From Ruegeria sediminis (GTDB lineage Bacteria; Pseudomonadota; Alphaproteobacteria; Rhodobacterales; Rhodobacteraceae), in NCBI RefSeq assembly GCF_005938215.1, contig NZ_VCPD01000002.1, positions 620,001 to 684,000 on the forward strand: DNA of 64,000 nucleotides, in the 5' to 3' direction. The notes beneath the pieces are model-generated. The model made no database searches. It saw nothing but the letters and a program-made list of their open reading frames with translations, and had not been told where the DNA came from. Below are positions 32,739 to 50,270 of this stretch, one piece after another; within the stretch, counting starts at the first letter, position 1; every line of letters begins with the position of its first letter. Position numbers and translations under genes: made by a program.

Positions 32739-33773
32739 TCATGACACCTGCGCGCGCAGCGCAGAAATCAGGTTCTCCATGTCTTCTGGCAGGGGCGCTT
32801 CGAACCGAAGTTTCTCACCACTGACCGGGTGTTCAAAGCCCAGAACCGCCGCGTGAAGCGCCTGCCGCGGGAAGCCGCGCACCGCCTCGGCCGCCTCCTC
32901 GCGTATTGACCGCGCTGGCAGCTTGCGCTTGCCGCCATAGACCGGATCTCCGACCAGCCCATGCCCGGCATGGGCCATGTGCACGCGGATCTGGTGCGTG
33001 CGCCCGGTTTCCAGCCAGCACTCGACAAGTGCAAGCACGGCCGGAGATCCAAAGGTCTCGACCACCCGGGCCCGCGTCACCGCATGGCGTCCGCCGTGAA
33101 ACAGCACCGCCTGTTTCTGGCGGTCGGTCTTGTGGCGGGCCAGTTGCGTGGTCAGGCGCAGGATGTTTCCGGGCTCAAAGCTTGCCCCCTTGACGCCGCG
33201 CAGACGCGGATCGTTCGCCTCGGGTACGCCAAAGCAGACCGCGCGGTAATACCGCTCGACGCTATGCGCCTCGAACTGAGCCGCCAGCCCCTGATGCGCT
33301 TTGTCGGATTTGGCGGCGACCAGCAAGCCGCTGGTGTCCTTGTCGATCCGGTGCACGATGCCGGGCCGCTTGACGCCTCCGACGCCGGACAGATCGTCGC
33401 CGCAATGATGCAGCAGGGCGTTGACCAAAGTCCCGCCGGGTGAGCCCGGTGCAGGGTGAACCACCATGCCCGCGGGCTTGTTGATGACGATCAGATCGTC
33501 GTCCTCGAAGACGACGTCCAATGGGATGTCCTCGGGCCCGATATGGCTGTCCTCGGCCTCTTCGACCGAAATGGAGATCCGCGCCCCCTCGACGACGCGC
33601 GCCTTGGCGTCCGTGACCACCGCGCCGTCGACCGACACCGAACCGTTCTCGATCAGGCGGGCCAACCGGGTCCGCGACAGGCTTTCCTCTTCTGGCACAT
33701 CGCGCGAAAGCGCCTTATCAAGGCGGGGCGGCGGAGCGGCCGCGATTTCGAATTCTACCAGGCGAGTGCCCAT
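32739..33773 (-). CDS. rluD: RluA-family 23S rRNA pseudouridine synthase (RluD-like)
   Basis: 344 residues. An N-terminal S4 domain (LDKALSRDVPEEESLSRTRLARLIENGSV, in pieces) precedes the catalytic domain with the essential Asp in HRIDKDTSGLLV (about residue 147), INKPAGMVVHPAPG and the GRTHQIRVHMAHAGHGLVGDP motif. RluD modifies helix 69 of 23S rRNA at U1911, U1915 and U1917; the exact target is inferred. The ATG at 33773 overlaps the ATG of the divergent DUF6476 gene within one CATG. Confidence 0.9.
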   Translation of the reverse strand: MGTRLVEFEIAAAPPPRLDKALSRDVPEEESLSRTRLARLIENGSVSVDGAVVTDAKARVVEGARISISVEEAEDSHIGPEDIPLDVVFEDDDLIVINKPAGMVVHPAPGSPGGTLVNALLHHCGDDLSGVGGVKRPGIVHRIDKDTSGLLVAAKSDKAHQGLAAQFEAHSVERYYRAVCFGVPEANDPRLRGVKGASFEPGNILRLTTQLARHKTDRQKQAVLFHGGRHAVTRARVVETFGSPAVLALVECWLETGRTHQIRVHMAHAGHGLVGDPVYGGKRKLPARSIREEAAEAVRGFPRQALHAAVLGFEHPVSGEKLRFEAPLPEDMENLISALRAQVS

Positions 33774-34074
33774 GACTGTCCCTTCCGAACCCCAAGAACC
33801 GCAGGAAACGCCGCAGTTGAGACTGCTCAGGCGGATGGTCATGGCCCTGACCGCGGTGATGATTGGCGGCGTTCTAGTGACATTCGCACTGATTGTCATC
33901 CGTCTGTCGGACCGCACCCCCACCTTGCCCGACCAGATCGAATTGCCCGACGGCGCCCGCGCACAGGCCCTGACCATCGGCAACAACTGGTACGCCGTCG
34001 TCACCGACGACCAACGCATCCTGATCTTCGACAAGACAACGGGGCGGTTGAGGCAGGAGGTTGCGGTAGAGTGA
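33772..34074 (+). CDS. DUF6476-like small membrane protein
   Basis: 100 residues: a Pro/Glu/Gln-rich N-terminus, one membrane segment (MVMALTAVMIGGVLVTFALIVI, about residues 22-43), then a short periplasmic beta-rich tail (TIGNNWYAVVTDDQRILIFD, TGRLRQEVAVE). The tail looks like a single beta-propeller-like repeat. It is found mainly in Rhodobacterales as far as I recall, and the function is unknown. It is back to back with rluD with overlapping start codons, which leaves no intergenic promoter space. Confidence 0.72.
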   Translation: MTVPSEPQEPQETPQLRLLRRMVMALTAVMIGGVLVTFALIVIRLSDRTPTLPDQIELPDGARAQALTIGNNWYAVVTDDQRILIFDKTTGRLRQEVAVE

Positions 34075-34219
34075 CACTGCGATGTCATACTGGTCTAGGT
34101 CATGCTACGCATGCCGCGTGCGCGAACAAGGCACTTTGAGCATTTAGTGCTTTGTTCGTGCGAGATAAATAAATGGAACGACTACAAAGATTTGACCCCT
34201 CAAGATTAGGTGAAATGAA

Positions 34220-35041
34220 TTGTCCAACGAAAACCGCATTAGAACAGAACCGGCAACGCTGTGGGTAGGTGACGCATTCAGCGCTTTGGAATATGTCAGC
34301 CTGAAATCTTTGGTAATACAAGGCATGAATCCAGTGCTTTTCTGTTACGATGACGTCAAGAACGTTCCGCCAGGCGTGACAATAAAAGACGCCAACCAAA
34401 TTGTCGGCAGAGACAAAATCTGGGTCAACAAGGAACGCAATTCTCTTGCACCCTTTTCGGACTATTTTCGGTACCTCTTATTGGCAACGACTAACTACTA
34501 CTGGGTCGACGCCGACGTTCTTGCTCTGAGGCCGTTTGATTTTGTATCGGACTATTTTTTGGCATGGCATCCACCCGTATTGGCAGTCGGTGTTCTAAGC
34601 GTGCCTCATAACTCGCCAACATTATCTGATCTAATCAAAGCCTGCGAGAAACCGAATGTGAATTTCCCGTGGCTGAAAAGAAACAAAGGCCGATTGGAGG
34701 ACCTTTCAGAAGATAGCGGGGCAATAGCTCCTGAGGATTTGCCATATAAAGCGCTCGGACCACTCGCCCTTACTTGGCTGATGCGCAAACATGGGGAAGA
34801 AAGACATGCATTGCCGGCGGCATCACACTATCCGCTGCAACCAAAACACATACTGAAACCTTTTCATCGCGTTTCCCCAAGAATTAATTGGGAAGGTGCC
34901 TATTCAATTCACCTTTTTGGGTCGGTTCAACACAGGAAGTTTCGAGAGATGAAAACCACGCTACCTCCTCACGGAAGTTTTCTCGAGCACATGTACAAAC
35001 TGTTTGAGGTCGACCCCACGGCATTCGACCCTGATTTCTGA
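34220..35041 (+). CDS. GT32-like glycosyltransferase, AT-rich
   Basis: 273 residues with a TTG start after AGGTGA. The fold matches the capsular/OCH1-type sugar transferases: LWVGDAFSALEYVSLKSLVIQG at the N-terminus, DYFRYLLLATTNYYWVDADVLAL (in pieces) holding the DxD metal motif near residue 97, and HLFGS towards the C-terminus. Base composition is visibly lower in GC than every neighbour, and codons end in A/T far more often, which points to horizontal acquisition. It is the first gene of the glycan island. The 145-nt gap before it is also AT-rich. The donor sugar is unknown. Confidence 0.78.
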   Translation: MSNENRIRTEPATLWVGDAFSALEYVSLKSLVIQGMNPVLFCYDDVKNVPPGVTIKDANQIVGRDKIWVNKERNSLAPFSDYFRYLLLATTNYYWVDADVLALRPFDFVSDYFLAWHPPVLAVGVLSVPHNSPTLSDLIKACEKPNVNFPWLKRNKGRLEDLSEDSGAIAPEDLPYKALGPLALTWLMRKHGEERHALPAASHYPLQPKHILKPFHRVSPRINWEGAYSIHLFGSVQHRKFREMKTTLPPHGSFLEHMYKLFEVDPTAFDPDF

Positions 35042-35199
35042 ATTAGAGGGAAATTGACGGCGCCGTTTCAAAAATCAAACGACGACGCGTTCTTCTTCCA
35101 ACAACCAAGAAAATGAGCGGGAAAAAGCCGATCTCGAAATAGAACTACTTCGCACATAAGCGAAGCTGCTCTTGCACCTTTGGATCAAGGCATTATTCA

Positions 35200-36135
35200 T
35201 TAAAACAGCGCAAGAATCTCGCCAAGTTGCCTCGCGATTTCCTCTGGTGCGGTGCGGGCGCGAACTTCGCGCATTACCTCCAGTCCGCGTCTCCATTCCG
35301 GGCTGCCGTACAAATCGCGCGCCCTTGCGATACCCTCCAGGATCGATTGCTCCGAGGCGTCATCGATCAGAAAGGGGTAGTCCTCACCCAGATAGGCAAT
35401 CGCATCATCAACCTGTCGGTTTACCAAGACGTTGGCGTCAACCGCCGCTGCATTGAAACCTTTCGTAAATGGCTTGGCCTGCCGGGCTGAGACGGCAGGG
35501 CGAGCACTTCTTTCGCGGACGCAATAGTGCATGGGGCAACTGCGCATCGCCTCAATCACCGAAGAAAACCCGTAGTCGCGGCCGTAGTCAGGCGACTGCA
35601 CTGAACCTGCCACGGCCGCCGGCAGGTAGGTATTCGACAACTTGCCAAAATAGGAAATCCCAAAGTTTTCCGGTTCGTCTTGTGCAGGGGTCAGCCGCGG
35701 GTCCGCATGATGCGCCAGATGCATCACTTCGACACTCTGCGAGATGTCAGCACGTGAGGTCAGCGTCTTTTCGAGAATGTCCCTCCCTCGAAAAGACGCG
35801 GCGATATGAACATCCGCCAGGCCAAGTGTTTCCTGCGAGGCTGGAATGTCGAGGTGATCGATGCAAAGGCCACGCACCCGAGCGCGCAAGACATGAATTG
35901 CGGACGGTGTAAACGCTGACAGCGCGTTTTTCAGCAGGATGACAATGGCGCCGTCAAGAGATTGGGCGAATCTGCGTTGTCGAACCGGCCTACGTCGTGG
36001 AGGTGGCGACGCGACCTCAAAATGGTAACGATCCCCCAGATGCTTGCTGGCGATTACGGAAAGCTGATCACAACGCATGATCTTGCCGCCCATGTTGACC
36101 TGCCCCGGCCGATGCAGGAACACAACGCGATTCAT
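35200..36135 (-). CDS. Glycosyltransferase-like protein of the glycan island
   Basis: 311 residues. No motif gives a firm family. The N-terminus VVFLHRPGQVNMGGKIMRCDQL is Rossmann-like, RDYGFSSVIEAMRSCPMHYCVRER fits the nucleotide-sugar-binding part of a GT-B or GT1-like enzyme, and the C-terminus is helical (EEIARQLGEILALF). There is no signal peptide. Its start overlaps the stop of the sulfotransferase gene (ATGA), so they form one unit, and it probably acts on the same glycan. It could also be a non-catalytic GT-like protein. Confidence 0.5.
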   Translation of the reverse strand: MNRVVFLHRPGQVNMGGKIMRCDQLSVIASKHLGDRYHFEVASPPPRRRPVRQRRFAQSLDGAIVILLKNALSAFTPSAIHVLRARVRGLCIDHLDIPASQETLGLADVHIAASFRGRDILEKTLTSRADISQSVEVMHLAHHADPRLTPAQDEPENFGISYFGKLSNTYLPAAVAGSVQSPDYGRDYGFSSVIEAMRSCPMHYCVRERSARPAVSARQAKPFTKGFNAAAVDANVLVNRQVDDAIAYLGEDYPFLIDDASEQSILEGIARARDLYGSPEWRRGLEVMREVRARTAPEEIARQLGEILALF

Positions 36136-37148
36136 TTCCTTCCCGCTATTCCGCGGCCTGAAACGTTGAAACTCAACGCCATTCGGAAAACAATCTCAGT
36201 GGCTTTTTGCAAGGCTTCGACCTCTCCCGCGGTGTCCCGTTGAAAGGTGAGTTCATCCTCGGTCAACTGCGGCGGTTCAAACAACGTTTTGCGGTCGGGG
36301 AAGAACTCGCGCAGAAAACCGTCGTCCGTGCCGGCAAGGTAGCCGTCCAGCCAAGTGCGTTCCGAAGATTCCAGTACATCATGACGACGCAACATGACCG
36401 GATCCTTTGCTGAAAGCCGGCGCAACCTCCGGCTTTCCCGTTTCCCCATCGCGCGCGTCACGATGCCGAATGCTTCGCTGGCCACGCGGGACAGCGACGG
36501 ATTGGCGGGCATGTCCGTGGATGCCCCGTCAGGAACTTCGAGGCCCATCTTCTCAAAAAAATCATCAATTACGTTGCCGTTCTTCAAAAGTGCGCGATCG
36601 TAGATTTGCGGTTCGATCGCCGCTTCGGGAAAGGCCATGCGGATCTGTTCGACACGACCGGAATAATTGTGCCCTTCGGGAGAACGCTCAATTTGCTCAA
36701 GCCGGTCGCGGACAAACTTCGTGGCGCCTCCAGTGATGCGACCGTTTTTGGCTCTTTGTTTGTAGTCGGCCTCGAAAAAATCTGAATAGCGGCGGCAATA
36801 AAAGACAACTCTGATCTCTTTGGCGGGAATGCCCGAAAAAACTTTTGCTAGCCGCTCCATATCGGCCGTGAAGAACATCTCGGATGAGACTAGGCAGGCC
36901 TGGTGCCGATGTGCCTCGTATTCTTCGGCCAGCGCCTCTTGGAATCCGGCGAGGGAACTGGGCGTCTTGTTGAGGTCAAATACGATCCTGTTATGGCTGA
37001 TGGGCAGATTGCCTTCTCCGTTGAGCCGTCGGCGGCCTGCCTCCATGTAACGCAGCCCAGATTCCGGCAAAAGGTTGCGGTTGCTTCGGAGAAACCCTTG
37101 TAGCGCAGTGGTTCCCGTTTTGGGCATTCCTATGTGAAGCCAAAGCAT
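36132..37148 (-). CDS. Sulfotransferase-like protein
   Basis: 338 residues. The N-terminal WLHIGMPKTGTTALQGFL is the 5'-phosphosulfate-binding loop of PAPS-dependent sulfotransferases, and VVFYCRRYSDFFEADYKQ (about residue 105) resembles the 3'-phosphate-binding strand-helix with conserved Arg and Ser. The start at ATG 37148 (GAGG upstream) was preferred to the longer frame. It overlaps the next GT-like gene by 4 nt. Together they suggest a sulfated surface glycan. The acceptor is unknown, and such folds occasionally act as tyrosine or lipid sulfotransferases. Confidence 0.78.
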   Translation of the reverse strand: MLWLHIGMPKTGTTALQGFLRSNRNLLPESGLRYMEAGRRRLNGEGNLPISHNRIVFDLNKTPSSLAGFQEALAEEYEAHRHQACLVSSEMFFTADMERLAKVFSGIPAKEIRVVFYCRRYSDFFEADYKQRAKNGRITGGATKFVRDRLEQIERSPEGHNYSGRVEQIRMAFPEAAIEPQIYDRALLKNGNVIDDFFEKMGLEVPDGASTDMPANPSLSRVASEAFGIVTRAMGKRESRRLRRLSAKDPVMLRRHDVLESSERTWLDGYLAGTDDGFLREFFPDRKTLFEPPQLTEDELTFQRDTAGEVEALQKATEIVFRMALSFNVSGRGIAGRK

Positions 37149-37259
37149 ACAGGGACCTCGTTCACGTTTCGGCTTTTTTGTCTTGGTCCTTGAGGTTGAC
37201 CAAACATGGCAAGATTGCTGCAGCTGCATCGTATGCTGAAATCGGCAAGCGAAAGACCA

Positions 37260-38183
37260 TCAACACAACGACAATTCCGATATCAGCGCGGCGGCCAGCC
37301 GCCGTCCCACCTTGCGCCCGTCAAACAGGGACGGAACCGGGTGTTGTTCCCGAATGGGCGCCATATGAAAACGGTGGTTGCCGTCATAGAATTTGAAGTT
37401 CGTTTCGCACAGATACAATTTACCCGTACGGGCGCAGGGCAGAATGTCATGCGCGAACAGTCCTACCCCCAGACCCCTCTTCACCGCCGCGGCGATATCC
37501 GCGATCTGATCCTGGTTAGGCGTGATCAGTTTGTCATGGAAGTATCGTATCAGGTCGGCATCGACCGGAGTATCGCGGGTATGCACACTTGGCGCCGTTC
37601 CGGCACGCACCCAAGCGAAGAGAACCTTTCCACCAACGGCTTGTGCGCGTATGCATACGTGCCAGAGTTCGCCCGCATATTCATGGCGACAGTCAATGTA
37701 TTCGGTGTTGTAGCGGGCCGGGTTAATTTCTTCTTCCGGCCCGATCAGTTGCACAGGAACGTGGGCATCGCTGACGGCGTTTGAAAAAACAGTTTCGAAT
37801 TCTTCATTGAGCTGAATGAGCTTGGGCATGGGTACGCCCGCTTCCGTCAACACTTGGTTCTGGCGGATCTTGTGACCGACAATTCTTCCCTGTTCGACCG
37901 AATGCAGAATGTGGTGCCCCAGGTCGGCAAGTTCTCGTTCCCGCCCTCGCAGCCAGTCGACCTTTTCATTCTGAACGACAAACAGCTCGTTGTAGTGCAA
38001 AAGAACGAAACTTTTCGGGTCTCGTACAGCTCCCTGATCCAGCAAGTCCGAACACGAAAGGATGCTGGACGGCACACCCATTTTTGCAAGTGTCCGCGTC
38101 AGCCTCAGAATGACGTTGCGCGAGCCTTTGCCCTTTGCAACTACACCTGGTTCGTCGAAATCAACCACATGGAAGCGCGCCAT
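37260..38183 (-). CDS. ATP-grasp-like protein
   Basis: 307 residues. HKIRQNQVLTEAGVPMPKLIQL (about residues 105-126) resembles the central helix-strand of ATP-grasp ligases (RimK/D-Ala-D-Ala ligase type), and LYLCETNFKFYDGNHRF near residue 270 supplies the Glu-x-Asn Mg2+-binding pair. It may join an amino acid or small acid to a glycan or peptide. The ATG at 38183 overlaps the stop of the GT2 gene (TGATG), so translation is coupled. The family call is by pattern only. Confidence 0.52.
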   Translation of the reverse strand: MARFHVVDFDEPGVVAKGKGSRNVILRLTRTLAKMGVPSSILSCSDLLDQGAVRDPKSFVLLHYNELFVVQNEKVDWLRGRERELADLGHHILHSVEQGRIVGHKIRQNQVLTEAGVPMPKLIQLNEEFETVFSNAVSDAHVPVQLIGPEEEINPARYNTEYIDCRHEYAGELWHVCIRAQAVGGKVLFAWVRAGTAPSVHTRDTPVDADLIRYFHDKLITPNQDQIADIAAAVKRGLGVGLFAHDILPCARTGKLYLCETNFKFYDGNHRFHMAPIREQHPVPSLFDGRKVGRRLAAALISELSLC

Positions 38184-39178
38184 CAAACGCTCTCCGTCCG
38201 ACCGGTCGCCATCATGCGTGCTAGCAGGTCCGCCATCTCGGGCAACTCCCGCAACTCCGCGATTTGCGCACGGTGCGAGTCGCAGCAAGCCTTGTGCAGA
38301 CGTGCGGTCTCGGCGTCCGACATCAGTTCCTCGTACATGGCGGCCTTTCGCGGGGCGATGGCGTCGATCGAGCGATCCTCGACCGAGTTCTGATTCATCA
38401 TGTTCCAGTATTCCAGACCCAGGCTTTCTCCAAGATGGTGCGCACGTCCGCGCATTTTCTTGACGAGATAGCTTTCGCAGGACTTCAGCGCGTAATGGTT
38501 GAGCTGCACAAGATCGTACCCGACCGAGTCCCTGGCAGAACGCCAGCTTCCGGTGAAATAACGATCGGGCATCGGCTGCCCGGACCCGTTGTACCAATGA
38601 CACTCGTCCATGCCGTCGACAAGCGGGCGCTTTGGCCGGTGAACGCCCAGAACACCCCACAGACCGCCCTTGAACATCGTCTTCAGCCCCCAGGCCTGCG
38701 GTGGGCGGGGACAATGCTCGGGCGCCGCCATTTGGAACCGTTCAGACAGAAAGCCGTCCTCGTAGCGGACGACGCCGGCATTGCCGAACAGGCGCCAGGT
38801 CATGGAAATCATCCGCGCGTCGGGAATGGCCGCGGTCAGGGCGCGCAGAGTGTGATCGCCGGTCTTCACGTTGATCTGCTCGTCTGCATCGATCACGATC
38901 ACCCAGTCCTGATCGCGTGCCACGCCCATTTTCATGAATTTCTTGTAGGCGCGTTTTTGGGGGTTGCTCCGCCGGCCCGAATTGTTGTCCACGTGGGTCA
39001 GAATTCCGCGCGCATCCAGCCTGTCCAGCAAGGTGTCGGTGCCGTCAGTGCAGTCGTTGGTCATGACGACCATCTTGTCGATGCCGATGGCCAAGTTGTG
39101 CGCCACCCATTCCAGCAAGAACGGACCCTCGTTTTTCATTGGGGTCACGCTGATGAACAGCGGCTCTCCGTCTGACAT
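38183..39178 (-). CDS. Glycosyltransferase family 2 (Glyco_tranf_2_4 type)
   Basis: 331 residues. PMKNEGPFLLEWVAHNLAIGIDKMVVMTNDCTDGTD (in pieces, residues 13-48) is the classical start of this group, and VIVIDADEQINV carries the metal-binding DxD near residue 95. GLKTMFKGG and QLNHYALKSCESYLVKKMRGR follow, the last being typical of these GT2/GT92-like enzymes. It is a close relative of the gene at 44735-45718 and more distant from 40905-41765. It is first in the unit with the ATP-grasp-like gene. Confidence 0.85.
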   Translation of the reverse strand: MSDGEPLFISVTPMKNEGPFLLEWVAHNLAIGIDKMVVMTNDCTDGTDTLLDRLDARGILTHVDNNSGRRSNPQKRAYKKFMKMGVARDQDWVIVIDADEQINVKTGDHTLRALTAAIPDARMISMTWRLFGNAGVVRYEDGFLSERFQMAAPEHCPRPPQAWGLKTMFKGGLWGVLGVHRPKRPLVDGMDECHWYNGSGQPMPDRYFTGSWRSARDSVGYDLVQLNHYALKSCESYLVKKMRGRAHHLGESLGLEYWNMMNQNSVEDRSIDAIAPRKAAMYEELMSDAETARLHKACCDSHRAQIAELRELPEMADLLARMMATGRTESV

Positions 39179-39446
39179 GTGCTTCCTGCCCGTTATGCGT
39201 TCGCGAACTCAGGATCTGCCCCGCCTTCGCGCACCTTGAGTTTTCCGAAACCTTACGGCACGCGCCATCAAAGGCAAAGAGGCTTTGCTCGAAGCAACCA
39301 AATACCTTCGGGTTCCGAAGCCGGAAGGTCAAAATCGTCAGAAACCAAGAATTCTCTTTATCCAAACCTGCGAGAGCGGATAACAAAGCCTGCCGGGACC
39401 AGGTCCGGGCGTTGAACGGAACCCTTGGTCCAAGGTCAAACTGCAT

Positions 39447-40133
39447 ATGAGTACATCCCAGCTAGCCCCGGTCGCGAATGGACTGCCCGCCGTCGAATAT
39501 CTGAAGAGCCAGTTCAAGATCCTGCCGCAAGGCATGATCCAAGTCGGTGCGCACAACGGCCGCGAGATTCGCCAGCTTGCCCGTTCCGGCGTGTCGCGCG
39601 GCGTATTCATCGATCCGTTGGACGAAACTTTTCCCATGCTTTCGAAAAGGGCCGCGCAGCATCCCGGCTACCGGGCAGTCAAGGCGCTGGTCGGGGACGA
39701 GGACGGTCGCGAGGTCGAGTTCCATGTTGCGTCGAATTCGGGAGAAAGCTCCAGTTTTCTGGCTCCGGACGCACATCTGGAAATCAAGTCCGGCATATCC
39801 TTCGACACGACCCGCAAGCTGACCCTCCGCAGTCTCGATGCGCTCCTGGACGAACAAAAGGTGGATACTTCAGAGTATGATCTCCTCTTTGTCGATACCC
39901 AAGGCGCCGAGCTTCACGTCCTCAAAGGGGGCATGAAGACACTCGGTCGGATGCAATTCCTGTGGATGGAGGCAAGCATCGGCGGAATCTATCAGGGCGA
40001 CACGGCGCTTGGTGATTTTGTCCCATTTCTGAAGACGTTGGGATTTGAACTGGCCTGGTGCCAGATGAAACGTCTGGGTTGGGGCGACGCGCTGTTCGTC
40101 CGGCGCGAGCTGTTTGCGGGTGGCAAGGCCTGA
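39447..40133 (+). CDS. FkbM-family methyltransferase
   Basis: 228 residues. The SAM site is MIQVGAHNGREIRQL (about residues 30-44), followed by GVFIDPLDETF, the acidic loop, NSGESSSFL, RSLDALLD and LFVDTQGAELHVLKGG, the conserved pattern of FkbM methyltransferases that usually O-methylate sugars or polyketides. The ATG at 39447 follows a 268-nt divergent gap shared with the GT2 gene. It would methylate a residue of the island's glycan. Confidence 0.85.
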   Translation: MSTSQLAPVANGLPAVEYLKSQFKILPQGMIQVGAHNGREIRQLARSGVSRGVFIDPLDETFPMLSKRAAQHPGYRAVKALVGDEDGREVEFHVASNSGESSSFLAPDAHLEIKSGISFDTTRKLTLRSLDALLDEQKVDTSEYDLLFVDTQGAELHVLKGGMKTLGRMQFLWMEASIGGIYQGDTALGDFVPFLKTLGFELAWCQMKRLGWGDALFVRRELFAGGKA

Positions 40134-40164
40134 GCGCAACTCGGCATTGGCCCATCCGGACCGT

Positions 40165-40817
40165 TCAGATCCAGTCAAGAAACACCCTATCCTCCAGTTG
40201 CGCCGCCGCCACCCGCCTGCGCAACATGCGGTAATCGCGCCGCAATTCGGGAAACTGCCGCTCGTGGGTTTCCACGACGGTCAGCCTGACATGCCGCAAC
40301 AGATCCCGATCCATGAGATCGTTCATCACTTCAAGTTCGGCGCCTTCGATGTCCAGTTTGAGAAGGGCGATGTCATTGCGCTCCTCAAGCCGCTCTTCGA
40401 TGATCGCGGCGAGGCGCACGATCGGGACCGAAACCATGTTTTCAGAGTTGGCATCCACCTCGGAACTCCCGGAGACGACCGTGCTTTTGACCGTCTGAGC
40501 CAAGGGGTTCCGATCGAAGGACACCGATCTCATCAGATCCACCTGCCCTTGGCGCGCGCCAACGGCCACATTGTGGAGCCGGACACTTTTTGCCCTGCGC
40601 ATTGCCCGGACAGCTGTTCGAATGCCAGGGGATCGGGTTCGTACGCATCCACATCCGCCCCGGTTCGCGACATTCGCGCCGCAGTCAATCGCCAGGTCGC
40701 CCTCCCGCAGCAGAGCGCGAATACCAAAGACCAGCCCTTTGGCCTGCGCATGCAAACGATCTCGGCTCAACTGGCGGCGTTGCTTTTTCGAAAGCCCTTC
40801 CGTATCGAAGTACCCAT
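40165..40817 (-). pseudogene. FkbM-family methyltransferase broken by frameshifts
   Basis: The likely original start is ATG 40817 (MGTSIRKGFRKSN). This frame ends in TGA after 16 codons, and the homology resumes in another frame at LSRDRLHAQAKGLVFG and IDCGANV. It then jumps to a third reading (GADVDAYEPDPLAFEQLSG) and returns at VRLHNVAVGARQGQVDL through LKLDIEGAELEVM to the stop at 40165. The segment between IDCGANV and GADVDAYEP is also too short, implying a small deletion. Three frame changes make a functional enzyme unlikely unless the read has errors; one change is next to an AAAAA run. An in-frame TTG at 40770 could still give a 201-residue product with a scrambled centre. Confidence 0.7.
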
Positions 40818-40904
40818 GAATTAAGCGAGTTGACCCTCGGCTCGGGACAGGTTCGGGGGCCTTTTTTCGATGTCCATCACCTCAGAACCTACGGGCATAT
40901 TCGA

Positions 40905-41765
40905 ATGAATATTTGTGCGATCACAATGGCGTGGAAAGATTATTGGTTTCTCGAGAAATGGGTTCGCTACTACTCGGAACAATTCGGAAGAAACAACCTT
41001 GTCATTGTCAGTCACGGCCAGGATCCAAGGCACGAGGAAATCGCGTCCGGCTGTCAGTTGCTGGCTGTTCCCCGCAATGGGGCGATGTCCGAAGACCTCG
41101 AGCGGCAGCGGTGGCGCTTCCTGTCGGATATCTCAACCATGATGCTTCGACATCACGATACGGTGCTATGCTCGGATGTGGATGAAATCGTTCTTGCCGC
41201 GGACCCAACCAGAAGGTTGCAGGACGTACTGACCGAACTTGGCGACTTCGCCACGATTTCGCCGGTCGGCGTCGAAATCCTGCCGCCACGCCAACCATAC
41301 AATCAATCTGCCGGAATTTTTCCTCAGTGCCAGGCCGCGTTGTTCAGTTCCCGTTACTCGAAACCCTGCATCACGCGCCAACCGATATCGTGGAGCGTCG
41401 GCGGCCACGGCGTCTTCGGAAACCCGTGGCGCGTGACCCCGGAGCTCATTCTGTGCCACATGCAGTACGCGAACCCCGAGATCCTCGAAATCAGGCGGAG
41501 TGAGCGCGCGGCGGACAGCGACGCCACTCCCGACGGGGCCGGGCTTCCCGCCTGGTCACGCAAGCGGCGCCACCGCCGGGGCTTGATACAGCTATACAAT
41601 TCCCTCGAAGCGACCGAAAAAACGACTGCGCTGAACACGGCCGCGCGATTGTTGCAAGAGAGCCAAAACACGCATCCAGACGGCGAGCTTCGCTATCCGC
41701 GGCGGCTGGGCGTCTTGCATGCCATGCAATTCGATATCGGACAGCTAGCCACCGAAGGGCTGTGA
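40905..41765 (+). CDS. Glycosyltransferase family 2 (Glyco_tranf_2_4 type)
   Basis: 286 residues. MNICAITMAWKDYWFLEKWVRYYSEQFGRNN is a variant of the family opening with a Trp-Lys-Asp core, VLCSDVDEIVLAADP carries the DxD near residue 95, and SVGGHGVFGNP with CHMQYANPE forms the acceptor side. It lacks the C-terminal HRAKVAEI-type tail of the other two GT2 paralogues. The start at 40905 was chosen because the family motif begins there; the open frame upstream runs antisense through the broken FkbM gene. It is divergent from that gene. Confidence 0.75.
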   Translation: MNICAITMAWKDYWFLEKWVRYYSEQFGRNNLVIVSHGQDPRHEEIASGCQLLAVPRNGAMSEDLERQRWRFLSDISTMMLRHHDTVLCSDVDEIVLAADPTRRLQDVLTELGDFATISPVGVEILPPRQPYNQSAGIFPQCQAALFSSRYSKPCITRQPISWSVGGHGVFGNPWRVTPELILCHMQYANPEILEIRRSERAADSDATPDGAGLPAWSRKRRHRRGLIQLYNSLEATEKTTALNTAARLLQESQNTHPDGELRYPRRLGVLHAMQFDIGQLATEGL

Positions 41766-41770
41766 CACCG

Positions 41771-43771
41771 CTAGCTCCGCGAAGAAATGCGGTCCAACTG
41801 GTTGGCAAACCGCTGGTATGACGGGCAAAGGTCGCGGGCGCGCTCCAAGAAACGTCGGGCTTTGTGATCCTCGCCACGGCGCATGAGGATCTGGCCCGCC
41901 GCGCCCTGGATCGATGCTGTCTCGTTGTCCAGGCCCGCCGCCTGCAGGATCTGGCTTTCTCCCTGATCCTTGGCGCCAATGCGTTCCAGAAAGCGCCCGG
42001 ATGAATAGATCAGAAACGGGCTGTCCGGGGACAGGGCCAAGGCGTCGCCATACGCGAATCTCGCCGCCTGGTGGTCACCTTCGGCCTCAAGCAATTCTGC
42101 CAACCGCTTGTGATACAGGGGGTTCTCATTCGACAGCGCCAGTACGGCGCGGCTTTCGTCTATCGCGCAAGCGGCGGATACCTCTCCCAGACGGTATCCG
42201 AGCATGGCAGCCAGGCTGCGCCGGCTGGGATGCTCGGGGGCGATGGCTTCCACACGGTCCAAGCCCTCTTTCAGTTGCGCCAGGCGGTCGCCGCTGTCCA
42301 GCAACCGCCGGGCTTTCTGATCCAGGGCAAGCTCGTGCCAGTCAAGCAGGATCATGTCGAAATTGCAGGGCTGTCGAACGATCACCTTCCACTGCACCAG
42401 ATGCAGGTTGCTGAACGGCGTGAAACTGCGCTGCCGGACGTGCCTTTGAAGTTCCCAGTCGATCGGCGGGCAAAGGCGCTCGGGCAACTGGTTCCGGTAC
42501 AGCATGCGCGAGCCCAGAACGATGACGTCGGGCCGCATCGGTTTCGCCCAAAAGGCGCGGGTGAACATCCGCCCCGCGCCCCAGCGTTTCCCCCGCGCGC
42601 CCAGAACGGCGCCCAGCAGGGCACACAAGGCCGCGTGATCTTCGGGCCAAAGTTGCTTGTTGTTCAAACCCTCCCGCGCCAGCTTTTCCGCTTCGGCCCA
42701 CTTGCCCAGGTAGAAACAGTTCAACGCCTGCAACAACGGCAGAAAGGCGTTGTCCGCCCCGGCTTCGATGATCGGCCAAGCCAGGTCATAGGCTTCCTTG
42801 CTGCGGTCGCCCGCATTGAGGTACTGCGCCGCCTTGGAATAGATATGCGCGGCCTCGGACGGGTTCAGAAAGACCGAAGGCCCCTGTCGCACGCGCCCGA
42901 TCACCCGTTCATTGGCCTCCGCGATCTCCTGTTCCGTCAACACATCGCGAAACACCAGCCTCTGCCGCCCCGAGATGCGGGCTGCGGCCATGGAAAACGC
43001 CGATATGATCGGGGCTATGATCTGATCGGCACGCGACATGGCGTAGAGTTCCAGGAAATCGCGCTGGGCCCGCGTCATGCCGGTCAGATCCGCGATGTCG
43101 GACATCTGCATCAGATGCGGATGGCCGCGCTGAAACCGCTTCAGAAGCTCCGGCTGGTCTGAAAACATGATCGCCGGAGCGCCCGAAGCCTTTTCCAGAT
43201 GCCGCTCGTAATACTCCTCCGGCTCGACTTTCGCAGGCCAGGTCGTGTGCTTCCACGGCAACCCGTTCAGGATATCGCCTCTGCGGATGTGATAGGCGGA
43301 TACACCCTGCCCCGACAGAACCCGATCGGCACGGTCCATGATCGCCCTGATGGCGGGGTCAAAGCCGATCCGGTCCATGAACGCGCGATAGCGCGGGCGG
43401 ATGGCCTCGATGTCCTCCCATGGAAAGGCCAGTATCTCGAAACCTTCCTCGACGATGACGGCACGCCCCGAGGCCAGATGCGCGTTCAGCCTGTTCGGGC
43501 TCGTGTCGCTCTGAAAACTCCAGATGGGCGCAGCCGTCCGGTTCAGGTCCTCAAAGTCCTTTTCCGAGAGGAAATGCTGCTCCATCCAGTCCGGTGCGAA
43601 CAGTTCTTCGGGATTGTCCAGTTCGGGCGCATCGGCCCCCTGAGGAAACCAGTTCACCCTGAAGCCGGTTCCAAAATCCTCGCCCAAGCGGATGCAGGTC
43701 AGCAACATGAGCAACCGCGCGCCCAGCCGGTCCCGCCGCTGCCCGATGAAAACGCCGCGCCCGTCTGTCAC
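41771..43771 (-). CDS. Fucosyltransferase-like domain fused to TPR repeats
   Basis: 666 residues with a GTG start at 43771 that overlaps the previous stop (GTGA). Residues 1 to about 290 resemble a GT-B fucosyltransferase of the NodZ/O-FucT kind: GRRDRLGARLLMLLTCIRLGEDFG-like opening (with Gly-Gln-Arg), YHIRRGDIL as the donor-binding HxRxxD motif (about residue 168), and a final conserved ISAFSMAAARISG. The remaining 370 residues are TPR-like helical pairs (EAAHIYSKAAQYLNAGDRSKEAY, ALNCFYLGKWAEAEKLAREGL). It may act on a glycan or a protein, the TPR part presenting the acceptor as in some O-glycosyltransferases. Confidence 0.62.
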   Translation of the reverse strand: MTDGRGVFIGQRRDRLGARLLMLLTCIRLGEDFGTGFRVNWFPQGADAPELDNPEELFAPDWMEQHFLSEKDFEDLNRTAAPIWSFQSDTSPNRLNAHLASGRAVIVEEGFEILAFPWEDIEAIRPRYRAFMDRIGFDPAIRAIMDRADRVLSGQGVSAYHIRRGDILNGLPWKHTTWPAKVEPEEYYERHLEKASGAPAIMFSDQPELLKRFQRGHPHLMQMSDIADLTGMTRAQRDFLELYAMSRADQIIAPIISAFSMAAARISGRQRLVFRDVLTEQEIAEANERVIGRVRQGPSVFLNPSEAAHIYSKAAQYLNAGDRSKEAYDLAWPIIEAGADNAFLPLLQALNCFYLGKWAEAEKLAREGLNNKQLWPEDHAALCALLGAVLGARGKRWGAGRMFTRAFWAKPMRPDVIVLGSRMLYRNQLPERLCPPIDWELQRHVRQRSFTPFSNLHLVQWKVIVRQPCNFDMILLDWHELALDQKARRLLDSGDRLAQLKEGLDRVEAIAPEHPSRRSLAAMLGYRLGEVSAACAIDESRAVLALSNENPLYHKRLAELLEAEGDHQAARFAYGDALALSPDSPFLIYSSGRFLERIGAKDQGESQILQAAGLDNETASIQGAAGQILMRRGEDHKARRFLERARDLCPSYQRFANQLDRISSRS

Positions 43772-44730
43772 GCGTCGAGCCCGTCCGCATCGTCCTGAGG
43801 TTCGGCGTTCCGCCTGCTCTCGCGGCGCAGAGTCTTGAACTTGCGCCGCGCGGCCTGCACAAGCTGCGCATGGGTCTCGGCGCCCCGTTCTTCCAACCCA
43901 CGCATGTACCACGGCAGCGTGCGCCTGGCTCTGAACATCTGATAGAACTGCGCTTCGGTCAGGGTTCCATCCATCGCGCCGTTCATCAGCGGTTTCAGCA
44001 GACCAAGCTTGCGCAGCATTGGCGCAGAGAAATGGTTCGAGAACCAGGTTTTCAGGATCGTGGTGTTTGGCCCCATCAGGCGTTGTGCGTGCTTGTGGTC
44101 AAGGTCGAAGAAGGGATCGTAGAACAAGTACAGCCGCCCAATCGAAGGCAGGGACTCGGCACAATCCCCATAGGGCAGATCCCAGTTCTGGATGCGGCCA
44201 TAGCGGTACCGCGTTTCCCAGGGTACCAGCCTTTCGTCCAGAGTGGATTGCGGGTTGAAGGCGACCACGGTCGCGCCGGGAACCAGCCGTGCGAATGCCA
44301 GCGCCGCGAAAGCGCCCATCGAAGAGCCGGTCAGCACCACTTGCCCAAACCGGTCAAAAAAACCCTCACGAGCCTTGCCTTCGAGATAGGTGATGATTTC
44401 CTCGTCCCGAAACCAGGCCTTCGTGCGTGCGAATACACCCAGGTGGGACCAATTCCGGTCCCGGAAGAACTTCCACCCCCAGGGTTCGCGCGCGAATGAC
44501 AGGTCGTTCACGACGGCGATGTTGTCGAAGCTGACGACCAGGCGTTCTTCGGACCGGTGATGGAAGCTGATCGCGTGACGCTCGAGTTTCTGCAGGAACC
44601 CCTTGCCGTCGCCGCCCGGGTAAAGCTCGACGAACCAGGGGGGCGCGGGGTCGGTCAGGATGCGTTCGTACCCCGTCGTGCGGTCCGGGTGGTCGGGCTT
44701 GAGTTGGCTTTTCGATAGTTCTTCTGTCAT
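43768..44730 (-). CDS. Alpha/beta-fold hydrolase-like protein of the glycan island
   Basis: 320 residues from ATG 44730. A nucleophile-elbow-like GSSMGAFAALAFARLVPGATVVAFNPQS (in pieces, about residue 140) follows a beta-sheet start VVSFDNIAVVN. The expected acid may be in LYLFYDPFFDLDH, and a later HFSAPMLRKLG supplies His. The C-terminal 60 residues are basic and helical. Such proteins in surface-glycan clusters may deacylate or transfer acyl groups. It is between GT2 (4-nt gap) and the fucosyltransferase-like gene (4-nt overlap), so it belongs to one operon. Confidence 0.6.
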   Translation of the reverse strand: MTEELSKSQLKPDHPDRTTGYERILTDPAPPWFVELYPGGDGKGFLQKLERHAISFHHRSEERLVVSFDNIAVVNDLSFAREPWGWKFFRDRNWSHLGVFARTKAWFRDEEIITYLEGKAREGFFDRFGQVVLTGSSMGAFAALAFARLVPGATVVAFNPQSTLDERLVPWETRYRYGRIQNWDLPYGDCAESLPSIGRLYLFYDPFFDLDHKHAQRLMGPNTTILKTWFSNHFSAPMLRKLGLLKPLMNGAMDGTLTEAQFYQMFRARRTLPWYMRGLEERGAETHAQLVQAARRKFKTLRRESRRNAEPQDDADGLDA

Positions 44731-44734
44731 GGCC

Positions 44735-45718
44735 TCAGACCAGATTGTCCGCCAGCCAGCTGCGGAAGGCAACCCAGTCGGACCGCATCTTGATCTCGGC
44801 CACCTTGGCGCGATGCCAGTCGCAGGCGTCTTGATGCAGGCGCGCCAGGTCCGGATCGGCCTTCAGTTCCGCCAGCAAGGGCGCCGCCCGTTCGGCAATC
44901 GGCTGGATCGACGTATCGGGCGTTTTGTTGGCGTTCATATCGCGCCAGTAGGACTGCCCCTGATCCACACGGATGTGATTGGTCCTGCCGCGGTCCCGCT
45001 TGACCAGGAAGCCATCAAGGGACCGGACCGAGTAATGATGCAGCCGCCCCAGCGAATGATCGAAGTTTCGCCAAGCCCGCCAGCCCACGTCAGCGGCGGG
45101 AAACAGGTTGCCGCCTGCATCAGACCAGGCGACTTCGTCCTCCCTGCCCTCTTCCATGCCTTTCGGACGGTGAGGGCCGAACCGGGTGAACTTGCCGTTG
45201 TTCCGGAACAAGGTCTTCAGGCCCGACGCCCGCCCCGAATGATGGGGAAAGTCGATATCCGCCATGGTGAACGCCTCGGTGACCGGCCTGTCCTCGAATG
45301 CGATGTTGCCCGAACTGCCGAACAGCCGCCAGGCAAAGGAAATGGCATCCACCTGCCGGCCCGCACGGCGTTCCACTTCCGAGATCAAGGCGGGAAAGGT
45401 GCCGTCACCGCAACGGATGTTCCAGAACTCGTCCACGTCCAGGCACAAAAGCCAATCGGCGGATTTCACCTTTGGCTGCCTTCTGGCCCGCCGCAGCATC
45501 TGGTGCTGCGGGTTTCCGCCTTCTGCCACCTCGTTCACGACATGGGTCGCCAGCCCCAGATCCTGCAGCCGTTTCGCGATATCATCCGTGCCGTCCTCGC
45601 AACTGTTCGTGAAAATCACGAAGTGTTCGACGCCGAGTGTCCGGTGAAACGCCACCCACTCGAGCATGTACGGCCCCTCGTTCTTCATGGTCGTGAAAAT
45701 AGTAATGTTTTCAGGCAC
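44735..45718 (-). CDS. Glycosyltransferase family 2 (Glyco_tranf_2_4 type)
   Basis: 327 residues with a GTG start. TMKNEGPYMLEWVAFHRTLGVEHFVIFTNSCEDGTDD (in pieces) and LLCLDVDEFWNIRCGDG with DxD near residue 94 match the protein at 38183-39178 closely along the whole length, including GLKTLFR, LHHYSVRSLDGFLVKRDRGR and a final DWHRAKVAEI. The two are paralogues, perhaps adding successive sugars. It is the first gene of a three-gene minus-strand operon. The 229-nt region before it (45719-45947) separates it from the exporter genes and shows no other gene. Confidence 0.86.
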   Translation of the reverse strand: MPENITIFTTMKNEGPYMLEWVAFHRTLGVEHFVIFTNSCEDGTDDIAKRLQDLGLATHVVNEVAEGGNPQHQMLRRARRQPKVKSADWLLCLDVDEFWNIRCGDGTFPALISEVERRAGRQVDAISFAWRLFGSSGNIAFEDRPVTEAFTMADIDFPHHSGRASGLKTLFRNNGKFTRFGPHRPKGMEEGREDEVAWSDAGGNLFPAADVGWRAWRNFDHSLGRLHHYSVRSLDGFLVKRDRGRTNHIRVDQGQSYWRDMNANKTPDTSIQPIAERAAPLLAELKADPDLARLHQDACDWHRAKVAEIKMRSDWVAFRSWLADNLV

Positions 45719-45947: not shown

Positions 45948-47195
45948 TCAATCCAGCTGCCGACGGGCGATCCGCATTCCGTCAACCAGGTTGGCGGACG
46001 GGAACAGGACGACTGTATCCCCTGTCTCCAGCCCTCCGAGAACCTCGGCATCGACGCCGTTGTTGCGGCCCACATCGATCTTCCGCAGCTTGGCTCGGCC
46101 ATCGTCGACAACGAACACGGCCCAGTCCTGCCCCTGCCGGAACAGCGCGGCCGAGGGCACGACGACCGCGTCCGGCTTTTCCCAGACGACGATGCGGATC
46201 TCTACCCGATAGCCATGTCCCAGATCGCCCCGGTCCTCGCCGGGGTTGGCGAACTGTATCGTGGTCTCGACCCGCTGTTCCTCGACGCCGAGGGCCGAGT
46301 ACTTGGTGTATCCGTAGGGGTCGATCCGGCTGACGGTGCCGGTCAGATCCCCCTGCCCGCCCCAATTGGTGATGACCACGCGGTCGCCTTCGGTGACCTG
46401 CACCGCATCCGATGACAGCAGTTCGGCCATGACTTCGAGATCGCCGTCGACATCCCCGATTTCCAGAATCGGTTCGCCCGCCGGCAGGGTCGTTTCGCTC
46501 TTGTGGTTGACCTTCAGGATCGTTCCGTCGATTGGCGCGCGCAGCGGGATGCTGTAGGCAGGACGTTCGCTGTCGGCCAGCGCCGCGGCCAGCGCCATGT
46601 CGTCGAACCCGATCAGTTGCGCGCGGGCATTGGCCAGTTCTGCCTCGCGCATGGCGATGGCGGCCCTGACCGTGTCGAGATTGGCCTTGGCGACCTTGGC
46701 CGCCTGTTCGGCGCGCTCCATCGCCACCTTGCTGGCGACACCCCGGTCGACAAGCTTTTGCGCCCTTTCCAGATCGCTCTCGGCAAAGTCGTGCTTGGCC
46801 AGCGCAGCGTTCAGATCCGCATGCGCCACGCGCAACGCGGCTTCGGCGGCGGTGACCGCCGCATGGGCCTGCTCGCGTGTCCGAACGTCCAGCGCCGAAG
46901 GATTGGTGGGTTGCATCCGGGCGACGATGGTTTCGCCGCCGACGACCCGTTCACCGGGCAGAACCGTCACGCGCTGCAATTCGCCGGCCACGGGCGACGA
47001 GACGACATAGGGTTCCTTGACCCGCGTGCGGCCTTCCTCGTTGATCGTCACGATCATTTCGCCCTGCCGGACATCGGCCATGTCCACCAGCACGGACCGG
47101 GGCCAGAACGCCGCCGTCAGGACACCGGCCACGAGTACCACTGCGATCGTCGTCAGAAGCAGGCGAGAATTCTTCTTGCGTGCCAAGTGGGTCAC
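45948..47195 (-). CDS. HlyD/MacA-type periplasmic adaptor
   Basis: 415 residues. An N-terminal membrane anchor (LLLTTIAVVLVAGVLTAAFWP) is followed by a lipoyl/barrel-sandwich half, a long coiled-coil hairpin (about residues 105-205, with the AHAAVTAAEAALRVAHADLNAAL pattern), the second lipoyl half (PIDGTILKVNHKSETTLPAGEPI) and beta-barrel domains. It bridges an inner-membrane ABC exporter to an outer-membrane channel. It starts at GTG overlapping the permease stop (GTGA) and is the last gene of the ATPase-permease-adaptor unit. No TolC gene is adjacent. Confidence 0.88.
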   Translation of the reverse strand: MTHLARKKNSRLLLTTIAVVLVAGVLTAAFWPRSVLVDMADVRQGEMIVTINEEGRTRVKEPYVVSSPVAGELQRVTVLPGERVVGGETIVARMQPTNPSALDVRTREQAHAAVTAAEAALRVAHADLNAALAKHDFAESDLERAQKLVDRGVASKVAMERAEQAAKVAKANLDTVRAAIAMREAELANARAQLIGFDDMALAAALADSERPAYSIPLRAPIDGTILKVNHKSETTLPAGEPILEIGDVDGDLEVMAELLSSDAVQVTEGDRVVITNWGGQGDLTGTVSRIDPYGYTKYSALGVEEQRVETTIQFANPGEDRGDLGHGYRVEIRIVVWEKPDAVVVPSAALFRQGQDWAVFVVDDGRAKLRKIDVGRNNGVDAEVLGGLETGDTVVLFPSANLVDGMRIARRQLD

Positions 47196-49555: not shown

Positions 49556-49562
49556 CGGGAAC

Positions 49563-50270
49563 CTACCATTCGATATCCTCGGGCGTCAGCTTGGTTTCGT
49601 TGACCGTGACCTCGATCACCGCGCCATCCCCGAACCGGATCACGCGGTCGGCCATCGCCGCCTGCGACGCCGCATGAGTGACGATCAGGACCGTGGCGCC
49701 CAGCTTTTCGTTCACGTCTTTCAGGACATGCAGCACGGCCCGGCCCGTCGTGCTGTCAAGCGCGCCCGTCGGCTCGTCGCAGAACAGCACGTCGGGCTGC
49801 TTGGCCACGGCGCGGGCGATGGCGACGCGCTGCTGCTCGCCGCCCGACAGTTGCGCCGGAAAATGGTCGGCCCGATTGGCCAGGCCGACAAGGTCCAGCG
49901 CCTCGCCCGGATCCATCGGGTTTCGCGCAATCTCGGTCACCAGTTCGACATTTTCGCGCGCGGTCAGGCTGGGCATCAGGTTGTAGAACTGAAAGACAAA
50001 GCCGACGTGGTCGCGCCTGTACCGTGTCAGCTCGGTGTCTGACATCGCCGACAGTTCCTTGTCGCGGAAATGGACCACGCCCTCGCTGCCCCGGTCCAGC
50101 CCCCCCAGGATGTTCAAAAGCGTGGACTTGCCGCTGCCCGAGGCACCCAGCAGCACCACGAATTCTCCTTCGGGAATTTCCAGATCGACGCCGCGCAGGG
50201 CGTGAACCGCCGCCGGTCCTTCGCCATAGACCTTGCGCAAGTTCCTTGTGGTGAAAGTGTTCCGGGTCAC
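49563..50270 (-). CDS. ABC transporter ATP-binding protein (MacB/LolD type)
   Basis: 235 residues from GTG 50270, with GAGG upstream; longer frames start in non-conserved sequence. Walker [10 protein letters not shown] (about residue 42), Q-loop [18 protein letters not shown], signature [14 protein letters not shown], Walker [13 protein letters not shown] and H-loop VTHAA are all intact. It powers the FtsX-type permease that follows. It is divergent from the kinase gene with a 239-nt gap (50271-50509), in which I see no further gene. Confidence 0.92.

Follow-up and report, generated by a model that had tools for sequence, protein, structure and literature searches.

Eleven adjacent genes (g1 to g11) beside rluD in Ruegeria sediminis are, on the reading towards which we lean, a serotype-like cassette for tailoring a glycan, placed at a genus-wide hot spot, whose enzymes would attach fucose and sulfate to a glycan of the cell surface. 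The genes lie in a stretch of 64,000 nucleotides (the window; positions 620,001 to 684,000 of contig NZ_VCPD01000002.1, assembly GCF_005938215.1), between the end of a DUF6476 gene at 34074 and a HlyD/ATP-binding cassette (ABC) trio at 45948-50270. A preliminary description of the window had listed the same eleven genes, and they are real: all eleven open frames are intact. Gene calls came from a codon-usage caller, and starts are approximate.

Ruegeria species keep different gene sets at one site beside rluD

We compared the rluD regions of 53 congeners with the window, giving 54 genomes in all. The rluD gene (32739-33773, minus strand) is the conserved left anchor of the hot spot, at 79-88% identity in 53/53 congeners. 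It is followed by the DUF6476 gene (33772-34074, plus strand), named so in the preliminary description and without a match in NCBIfam, in the rluD loci compared (in L091 by tblastn only). The cassettes start directly 3' of this gene, and across the congeners the stretch that follows is variable. One gene set, type A, lies on a single strand and occupies the site in 29/54 genomes; 27 of them have all five members of what we call the core (g3, g5, g9, g10 and g11). The partial cases are G010, which has no g3, and G006, which is split by contig ends so that g9-g10-g11 alone are seen. Six of the 54 genomes have g9 alone of the core, 12 have other glycosyltransferase sets (type B in 10, type C in two), and seven have none of these. 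Type B, as described from a single genome, L071, includes a methyltransferase, PF13704 enzymes and a protein whose front resembles g1 and whose end matches ATP-grasp below the cut-off. Among individual genes, g5 stands at the site in 28/54 genomes, and g11 is 77-90% identical in 28 of 31 loci and 55-58% identical in the other three, its nearest relative being that of R. marisrubri (90%).

We placed the types, assigned by hand from the locus comparison, on a tree of the 54 genomes and counted 10 changes, against a mean of 23.3 for shuffled labels; the tree rests on 11 genes, ten from the dnaK-kpsM locus and one (rpoH) beside rluD, is not genome-wide, and has rows for G006, G033 and one other genome that are missing some genes. 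Swaps occur between sister genomes, such as G048 (type A) and G051 (type C). The gene order seen in the window is common in the genus and not universal, and our searches turned up no unrelated function for it. With these results, we conclude that different Ruegeria species keep different gene sets at one fixed site, in the manner of capsule serotypes. At the hot spot of G034 (L058), two extra genes stand between DUF6476 and g3.

The locus is layered, with a native core and later additions

The preliminary description took the eleven genes to be an inserted island, with rluD/DUF6476 on one side and an ABC exporter on the other. We measured third-codon G+C against 40 flank genes (mean 0.799, sd 0.035). 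The most foreign gene was g1 (z -8.7), followed by g2, g3 and g4 at about -5 and g6, g7 and g8 at about -3, while g5, g9, g10 and g11 fell between -0.5 and -0.9. Because of this spread, only part of the set looks foreign, and the mosaic goes beyond chance. Across the genus, the core genes resemble each host's own rluD and rpoH in third-codon composition, and core-gene distances track reference-gene distances (Mantel r 0.81, 0/999 permutations as high, a figure that takes in the short G006 row, which distorts the nearest-neighbour column by coming out as nearest for many rows). Since both composition and distances match host genes, the core is probably old at the site, with several losses or replacements since.

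Comparison with R. marisrubri showed no colinear counterpart for g1 (34075-35196) or for g6-g8 (39181-41785), and the order of g2 and g3 is swapped between the two species. At a threshold of at least 45% identity, none of the other 53 genomes showed g1 or g6-g8 at this site; relatives of g1 at 28-33% identity lie inside other cassettes. The window holds no tRNA, and no direct repeats of at least 14 bases were found in 33950-35350 or 38900-42100 (an integrase was not sought by profile), so mobile-element junctions of these kinds were not seen. We conclude that the locus is layered: a five-gene core is native to the site, and g1 and g6-g8 are later additions seen here alone. We reject insertion of a whole island because the core is native to the site in much of the genus. 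The exporter (HlyD, ABC permease and ABC ATPase by reading; minus strand) is also no fixed flank. It lies outside the cassette and is itself the unusual neighbour, with HlyD orthologs (at least 79% identity) in two other genomes; apart from this genome, it adjoins the cassette in R. marisrubri alone. In G033 the trio occurs at another place (L092; C25:45-64 kb).

Counterparts of eight of the eleven genes occur in a genome of another genus (G233). Its cluster, L233, holds g4-g5, g6, g3-g2 and g11-g10-g9 at 53-75% identity in a different order, and no rluD match was found in the 19.5 kb fetched. This recurrence speaks against a chance assembly, and these eight genes appear to act as a travelling set of small operons. 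The relatives of g2 are 72% identical in R. marisrubri, 54% in L233 and 42% in L124 and L125; those of g4, each beside a g5 relative, are 72% identical in R. marisrubri and 61% in L233; and g6 has a 67% relative in L233.

The g9 product is probably a fucosyltransferase and co-occurs with gmd

The core gene g9 (41771-43771, minus strand; 4-base overlap with g10) codes for a fucosyltransferase-like domain followed by C-terminal tetratricopeptide repeats (TPRs). In the front half, an HxRRGD motif (H161, R163, R164, G165 and D166) is invariant in 11 sequences from at least four genera, and we take this motif to be a mark of GT23-type families (FUT8, NodZ). The front half had no Pfam match, and no Pfam fucosyltransferase family was reached at E 1. 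A structural model of g9 matched FUT8 (6tkv) at E 2e-5 over 314 columns, in a list dominated by TPR proteins. The VIA listing shows no fucosyltransferase row because TPR proteins fill it, which is not evidence against the fold. Likewise, a profile search of the PDB gave 136 matches at E 1, and the 60 listed all fall on the TPR part.

The g9 gene is single-copy in 35/54 genomes, at the hot spot in each except G006, in which a contig ends beside it. We found gmd in 34/35 genomes with g9 vs 6/19 without (Fisher p 3e-7), and in 5/19 without (p 4.7e-8) when a gmd fragment in G047 was recoded as absent, both tests counting related genomes as independent. That fragment (G047:C9:4336-4974) is partial, carries an in-frame stop and scores below the family cut-off; G047 has no g9, and its closest relatives on the tree carry both genes. 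R. sediminis itself has gmd and fcl together on contig C13, both over the NCBIfam cut-offs.

Outside Ruegeria, the g9 domain was present in 16 genomes among 394 genomes of the family. At these loci gmd lies near g9 in 3/16 (p 5e-5, with one gmd per genome placed randomly), and in 2/15 (p 0.002) when L232, probably a duplicate of L124, is left out. In Cognatiyoonia (L124) the gene related to g9 directly adjoins gmd-fcl, and in an uncultured genome (L125) about 2.5 kb separate them. On plasmid p190534 of Paracoccus aestuarii (L223:6907-11199), gmd, a GDP-L-fucose synthase gene and a TPR-annotated g9 relative are neighbours on one strand. The Roseovarius relative (L123) has no gmd-fcl in the stretch fetched. 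Taken together, we conclude that g9 is probably a fucosyltransferase.

The modelled fold of g3 is that of a sulfotransferase

The g3 gene (36132-37148, minus strand), also part of the core, codes for a protein of the 3'-phosphoadenosine 5'-phosphosulfate (PAPS) sulfotransferase type. In the 22 sequences aligned, of 27 orthologs, a PKTGTT motif is nearly invariant and an RRYS motif is invariant; these presumably correspond to the 5'-phosphosulfate-binding (5'-PSB) and 3'-phosphate-binding (3'-PB) motifs. A sequence-profile search of the PDB with g3 gave nothing at E 10. We aligned a structural model, which begins 7 residues late and is missing the first strand, to known structures. The top seven alignments were all to sulfotransferases (among them NDST1, 3-OST5 and a bacterial one) at Z 9.6-9.9, and the first fold of another kind came at Z 6.1. 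APS (adenosine 5'-phosphosulfate) kinase is present in the genome. From the motifs and the modelled fold, we conclude that g3 is probably a PAPS sulfotransferase.

A nearly constant Kps export system lies elsewhere in the genome

The preliminary description proposed that the genes decorate a glycan made elsewhere, on the grounds that no polymerase or flippase was visible. Indeed, the 11 proteins gave no Pfam match to a flippase, a polymerase or a capsule-export family, and the kps genes lie on other contigs. The premise is weak, because ABC-transporter-dependent capsules need neither a flippase nor a Wzy polymerase; for the same reason the cassette could either supply side groups or assemble the repeat. 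The proposal is nonetheless plausible, and "elsewhere" now has a candidate, because KpsC/KpsS are universal in the genus and the kpsM locus is nearly invariant.

PF05159 (KpsC/KpsS) was found in 54/54 genomes, with the R. sediminis copy at C12:604286-608435; its KpsS matches at 3.2e-64, below the equivalog cut-off. The KpsM-like permease matched NF050053 at 1.2e-8 (35 bits vs a cut-off of 300) and no Pfam ABC family, and a CMP-Kdo synthetase subfamily was over its cut-off in the genome. The order kpsM-cysQ-kpsU-galE, two glycosyltransferase genes, a GT14 gene and a sulfotransferase gene is whole in 52/54 genomes, in R. sediminis at C13:462-471 kb (L094:6290-15262), near dnaK. As for exceptions, the locus is cut by the fetch in G006, galE was not called in G033, and an extra glycosyltransferase was called in G037. 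The glycosyltransferases of this locus are two PF13704 enzymes and one GT14-type enzyme, and CysQ recycles the by-product of sulfation. We conclude that the genus holds a nearly constant ABC-exported polysaccharide, which is probably sulfated, and that the variable cassette lies elsewhere. The kpsM locus varies too little for any co-variation with the cassette to be informative. The distance from kps to the hot spot is 5.3-11.4 kb in six genomes (G002, G006, G008, G030, G037 and G052, four of them type A), and in G037 the type A set is 7 kb from kps; this proximity is no more than suggestive.

Proposed function and alternatives

The proposal towards which we lean, a swappable cassette for fucosylation and sulfation of a surface glycan, could work as follows. 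The glycosyltransferases g5 and g11, joined in this genome by g1, g2 and g8, would extend the glycan in the cytoplasm; g9 would add L-fucose from GDP-fucose, supplied by gmd-fcl elsewhere in the genome, and g3 would add sulfate from PAPS. Further tailoring could come from g10 (as an esterase or acyltransferase), from the methyltransferases g6 and g7, and from the ATP-grasp protein g4. The data show which genes are present, their exchange at a single site, the association of g9 with gmd and the modelled fold of g3, and from there we infer these reactions, the order of the sugars and the acceptor. The likeliest acceptor would be the polysaccharide exported by the Kps system, an assignment that we regard as plausible, with doubt slightly outweighing confidence. 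A variant in which the two loci divide the work, so that an invariant sulfated backbone is exported by Kps and the rluD cassettes are swapped to vary its outer chemistry, strikes us as rather unlikely. In that variant, a TPR-tethered fucosyltransferase and a heparan-type sulfotransferase would together build a sulfated, fucose-bearing side chain.

Several observations weigh against the proposed fucose- and sulfate-adding cassette. When the association of g9 with gmd was corrected for kinship, on a tree drawn mostly from one locus, nine independent pairs gave about 4.8 concordant vs 0.2 discordant (median p 0.06), and recoding G047 gave 5.8 vs 0.2 (p 0.03), which is still borderline. One genome, G032, has g9 and no gmd match, and gmd-fcl stand in the fetched stretch of only 1/7 plasmid relatives of g9. 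The TPRs of g9 could mean that its acceptor is a protein. As to g3, its match to PF13469 (Sulfotransfer_3) reaches 14 bits vs a cut-off of 27 (E 0.061), Foldseek found no match at E 0.001 (best 3rnl, E 0.30), and by the aligner's own note models that lack a clear match usually reach a best Z of 7-8, which makes 9.9 moderate. Concerning the acceptor, nothing ties the cassette directly to Kps, as kps is universal and therefore cannot co-vary with it; at the 16 loci of other genera, the stretches fetched around g9 showed no kps gene; and in G037, the one genome read in this respect, nusB- and riboflavin-synthesis-like genes stand between the hot spot and kps.

Instead of the Kps polymer, the cassette might modify the lipopolysaccharide (LPS) core or O-antigen, or else a Wzy-type exopolysaccharide. 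The genome offers other export routes, with Poly_export genes at C13:305 kb and C15:191 kb, the first in what reads as an exopolysaccharide-type cluster, and FkbM proteins, S-adenosylmethionine (SAM) methyltransferases and PF13704 enzymes are not confined to capsules. The nearness of kps to the hot spot in six genomes argues the other way, if only indirectly, as does the kpsM locus, which has its own sulfotransferase as well as PF13704 enzymes, and we judge such an acceptor somewhat unlikely. The possibility that g9 and its partners glycosylate a protein, with the TPRs picking the substrate as in the O-fucosyltransferase SPINDLY, OGT and FlmG, draws on the match of the g9 repeats to those of OGT and SPINDLY; FlmG, too, is said to carry TPRs. 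In the available part of its description, FlmG is a modular flagellin glycosyltransferase (PMC7591256). Flagellin itself is disfavoured as the acceptor because G018 and G039 (2/54 genomes) keep all five core genes and have no flagellin match, although these two are close relatives and so count as one event. Moreover, a g9 relative follows gmd-fcl on the Paracoccus plasmid, and the N-terminal domain of g9 resembles FUT8, which acts on glycans. A protein acceptor therefore seems improbable to us.

A last explanation makes the genes passive residents, foreign DNA collected at a permissive site with no joint pathway. It fits the deviant third-codon G+C of g1, g2, g3, g4 and g6-g8 and the detection of g1 and g6-g8 at this site in no other of the 54 genomes. 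It does not fit the native composition of g5, g9, g10 and g11 or the distances that track those of reference genes, and three groups of genes (g2 with g3, g4 with g5, and g9-g10-g11) remain linked in a second genus. Nor does the window hold a tRNA, or the junctions direct repeats. This explanation is thus already weakened, and we consider it very improbable.

The other genes of the cassette

The genes form two minus-strand runs, g11-g10-g9 with gaps of 4 and -4 bases and g5-g4-g3-g2 with gaps of -1, 111 and -4 bases. Between the runs sit g6 (plus), g7 (minus) and g8 (plus), and g1 (plus) is terminal. Two genes code for FkbM proteins, where the preliminary description gave a single one. In Pfam, PF13704 was over its cut-off in g5 (38183-39178, minus; 1.5e-20) and g11 (44735-45718, minus; 4.2e-20), both core GT2/GT92-type glycosyltransferases, and in g8 (40905-41765, plus; 1.2e-7), a glycosyltransferase of the added block. 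The added block also holds the two FkbM methyltransferases, g6 (39447-40133, plus; PF05050 7.8e-15) and g7 (40165-40770, minus; PF05050 1.6e-13; start uncertain). The g1 product (34220-35041, plus), added in this genome, was called GT32-like, a label that comes from reading the sequence and for which Pfam gives no match. By the same kind of reading, g2 (35200-36135, minus) is glycosyltransferase-like, of an unnamed family and GT-B-like, again with no Pfam match. The ATP-grasp-like g4 (37260-38183, minus) overlaps g5 by one base and matches PF05770 (Ins134_P3_kin) below the cut-off (E 0.0032). NCBIfam gave no informative family for nine of the 11 proteins (g6 and g7 left out). A defence system was considered and set aside, as PADLOC gave no match for any of the 10 proteins submitted (g1 to g10).

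The core gene g10 (43768-44730, minus strand) codes for an alpha/beta-hydrolase-like protein. Its Pfam matches are sub-threshold (Abhydrolase_6 at 0.019; best DMP19 at 0.0018), and a PDB profile search gave four weak matches, the best being an esterase (E 0.19). A pattern of S137, D205 and H233 is present in the 15 of 29 orthologs aligned; of the two relatives aligned with them, the more distant L146 is without the histidine. In Roseovarius (L123), g10 is fused to a glycosyltransferase-like domain (PF13704, 27.0 bits vs a cut-off of 27.5), and on a Loktanella plasmid an annotated glycosyltransferase covers the g10 match. We consider g10 likely to be an esterase or acyltransferase that acts on the same glycan, judging from sequence.

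Relatives of g10 also turned up in other settings. A second recurrent place is beside pyrC-pyrE-dnaB-like genes, in several genera (L142, L144 and L146; L139 and L141 by gene lengths). Matches to g10 occur in 57 Phaeobacter plasmid records, and on a 65 kb plasmid of Phaeobacter inhibens (L221:7669-9678) a g10-like stretch lies inside an annotated polysaccharide pyruvyl transferase. On Thioclava plasmid p2 (L224:5922-13265), a g10 relative lies near an annotated PAPS reductase and a sulfatase-like protein. A 44% relative is carried by NZ_CP061939.1, a 16 kb plasmid record that by name is from Bacillus velezensis and may be mislabelled or carry foreign alphaproteobacterial DNA.

Significance and comparison with known systems

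Corals, algae and particles are the habitats of Ruegeria and its relatives, and there the glycan on the cell surface can determine whether a cell attaches and whether it takes up phage and gene transfer agents. If the proposed cassette is real, a swap site combined with constant export elsewhere would make surface-glycan variation readable from genomes, and g9 and g3 would be candidates for seldom-described bacterial activities, namely TPR-fused fucosylation and, going by the modelled fold, heparan-type sulfation. No description of the rluD cassette locus was found among the literature matches listed, in a search whose coverage mostly excluded subscription journals. The earlier interpretation is, as a whole, partly supported: we do find accessory glycan genes, a sulfotransferase gene among them, in an arrangement that departs from a standard capsule locus.

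At the level of single enzymes, g9 is like the GT23-type fucosyltransferases FUT8 and NodZ in its HxRRGD motif and in the co-occurrence of GDP-fucose genes, and its model matches FUT8 in a list filled mostly by TPR proteins; it differs in its C-terminal TPRs and in reaching no Pfam fucosyltransferase family at E 1. The g3 model shares its fold with the heparan sulfate sulfotransferases NDST1 and 3-OST5 (212-217 residues aligned), whereas identity to them is only 12-15%.

At the level of the locus, the closest likeness is to group 2, ABC-transporter-dependent capsules, in which region 2 (E. coli kps) holds serotype-specific genes between kps genes. As there, swappable glycosyltransferase sets occupy a fixed place and Wzx/Wzy are absent, and KpsC/KpsS, a KpsM-like permease and CMP-Kdo synthetase are found in the same Ruegeria genome. 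The Ruegeria cassette differs in that it does not lie between kps genes, the export genes being on C12 and C13, and in that a second, nearly invariant glycosyltransferase/sulfotransferase set stands beside kpsM. The available part of a report on the sulfated capsule cluster of Vibrio sp. KMM 8419 describes glycosyltransferases, ABC export and PAPS sulfotransferases, as in Ruegeria, and strains that differ in one region, including fucose-supply genes; there, PAPS and nucleotide-sugar genes belong to one large cluster, whereas those of Ruegeria are scattered (PMC11641403). What sets the Ruegeria locus apart from these known systems is the separation of a nearly invariant export locus from a distant variable cassette, together with a TPR-fused, fucosyltransferase-like enzyme.

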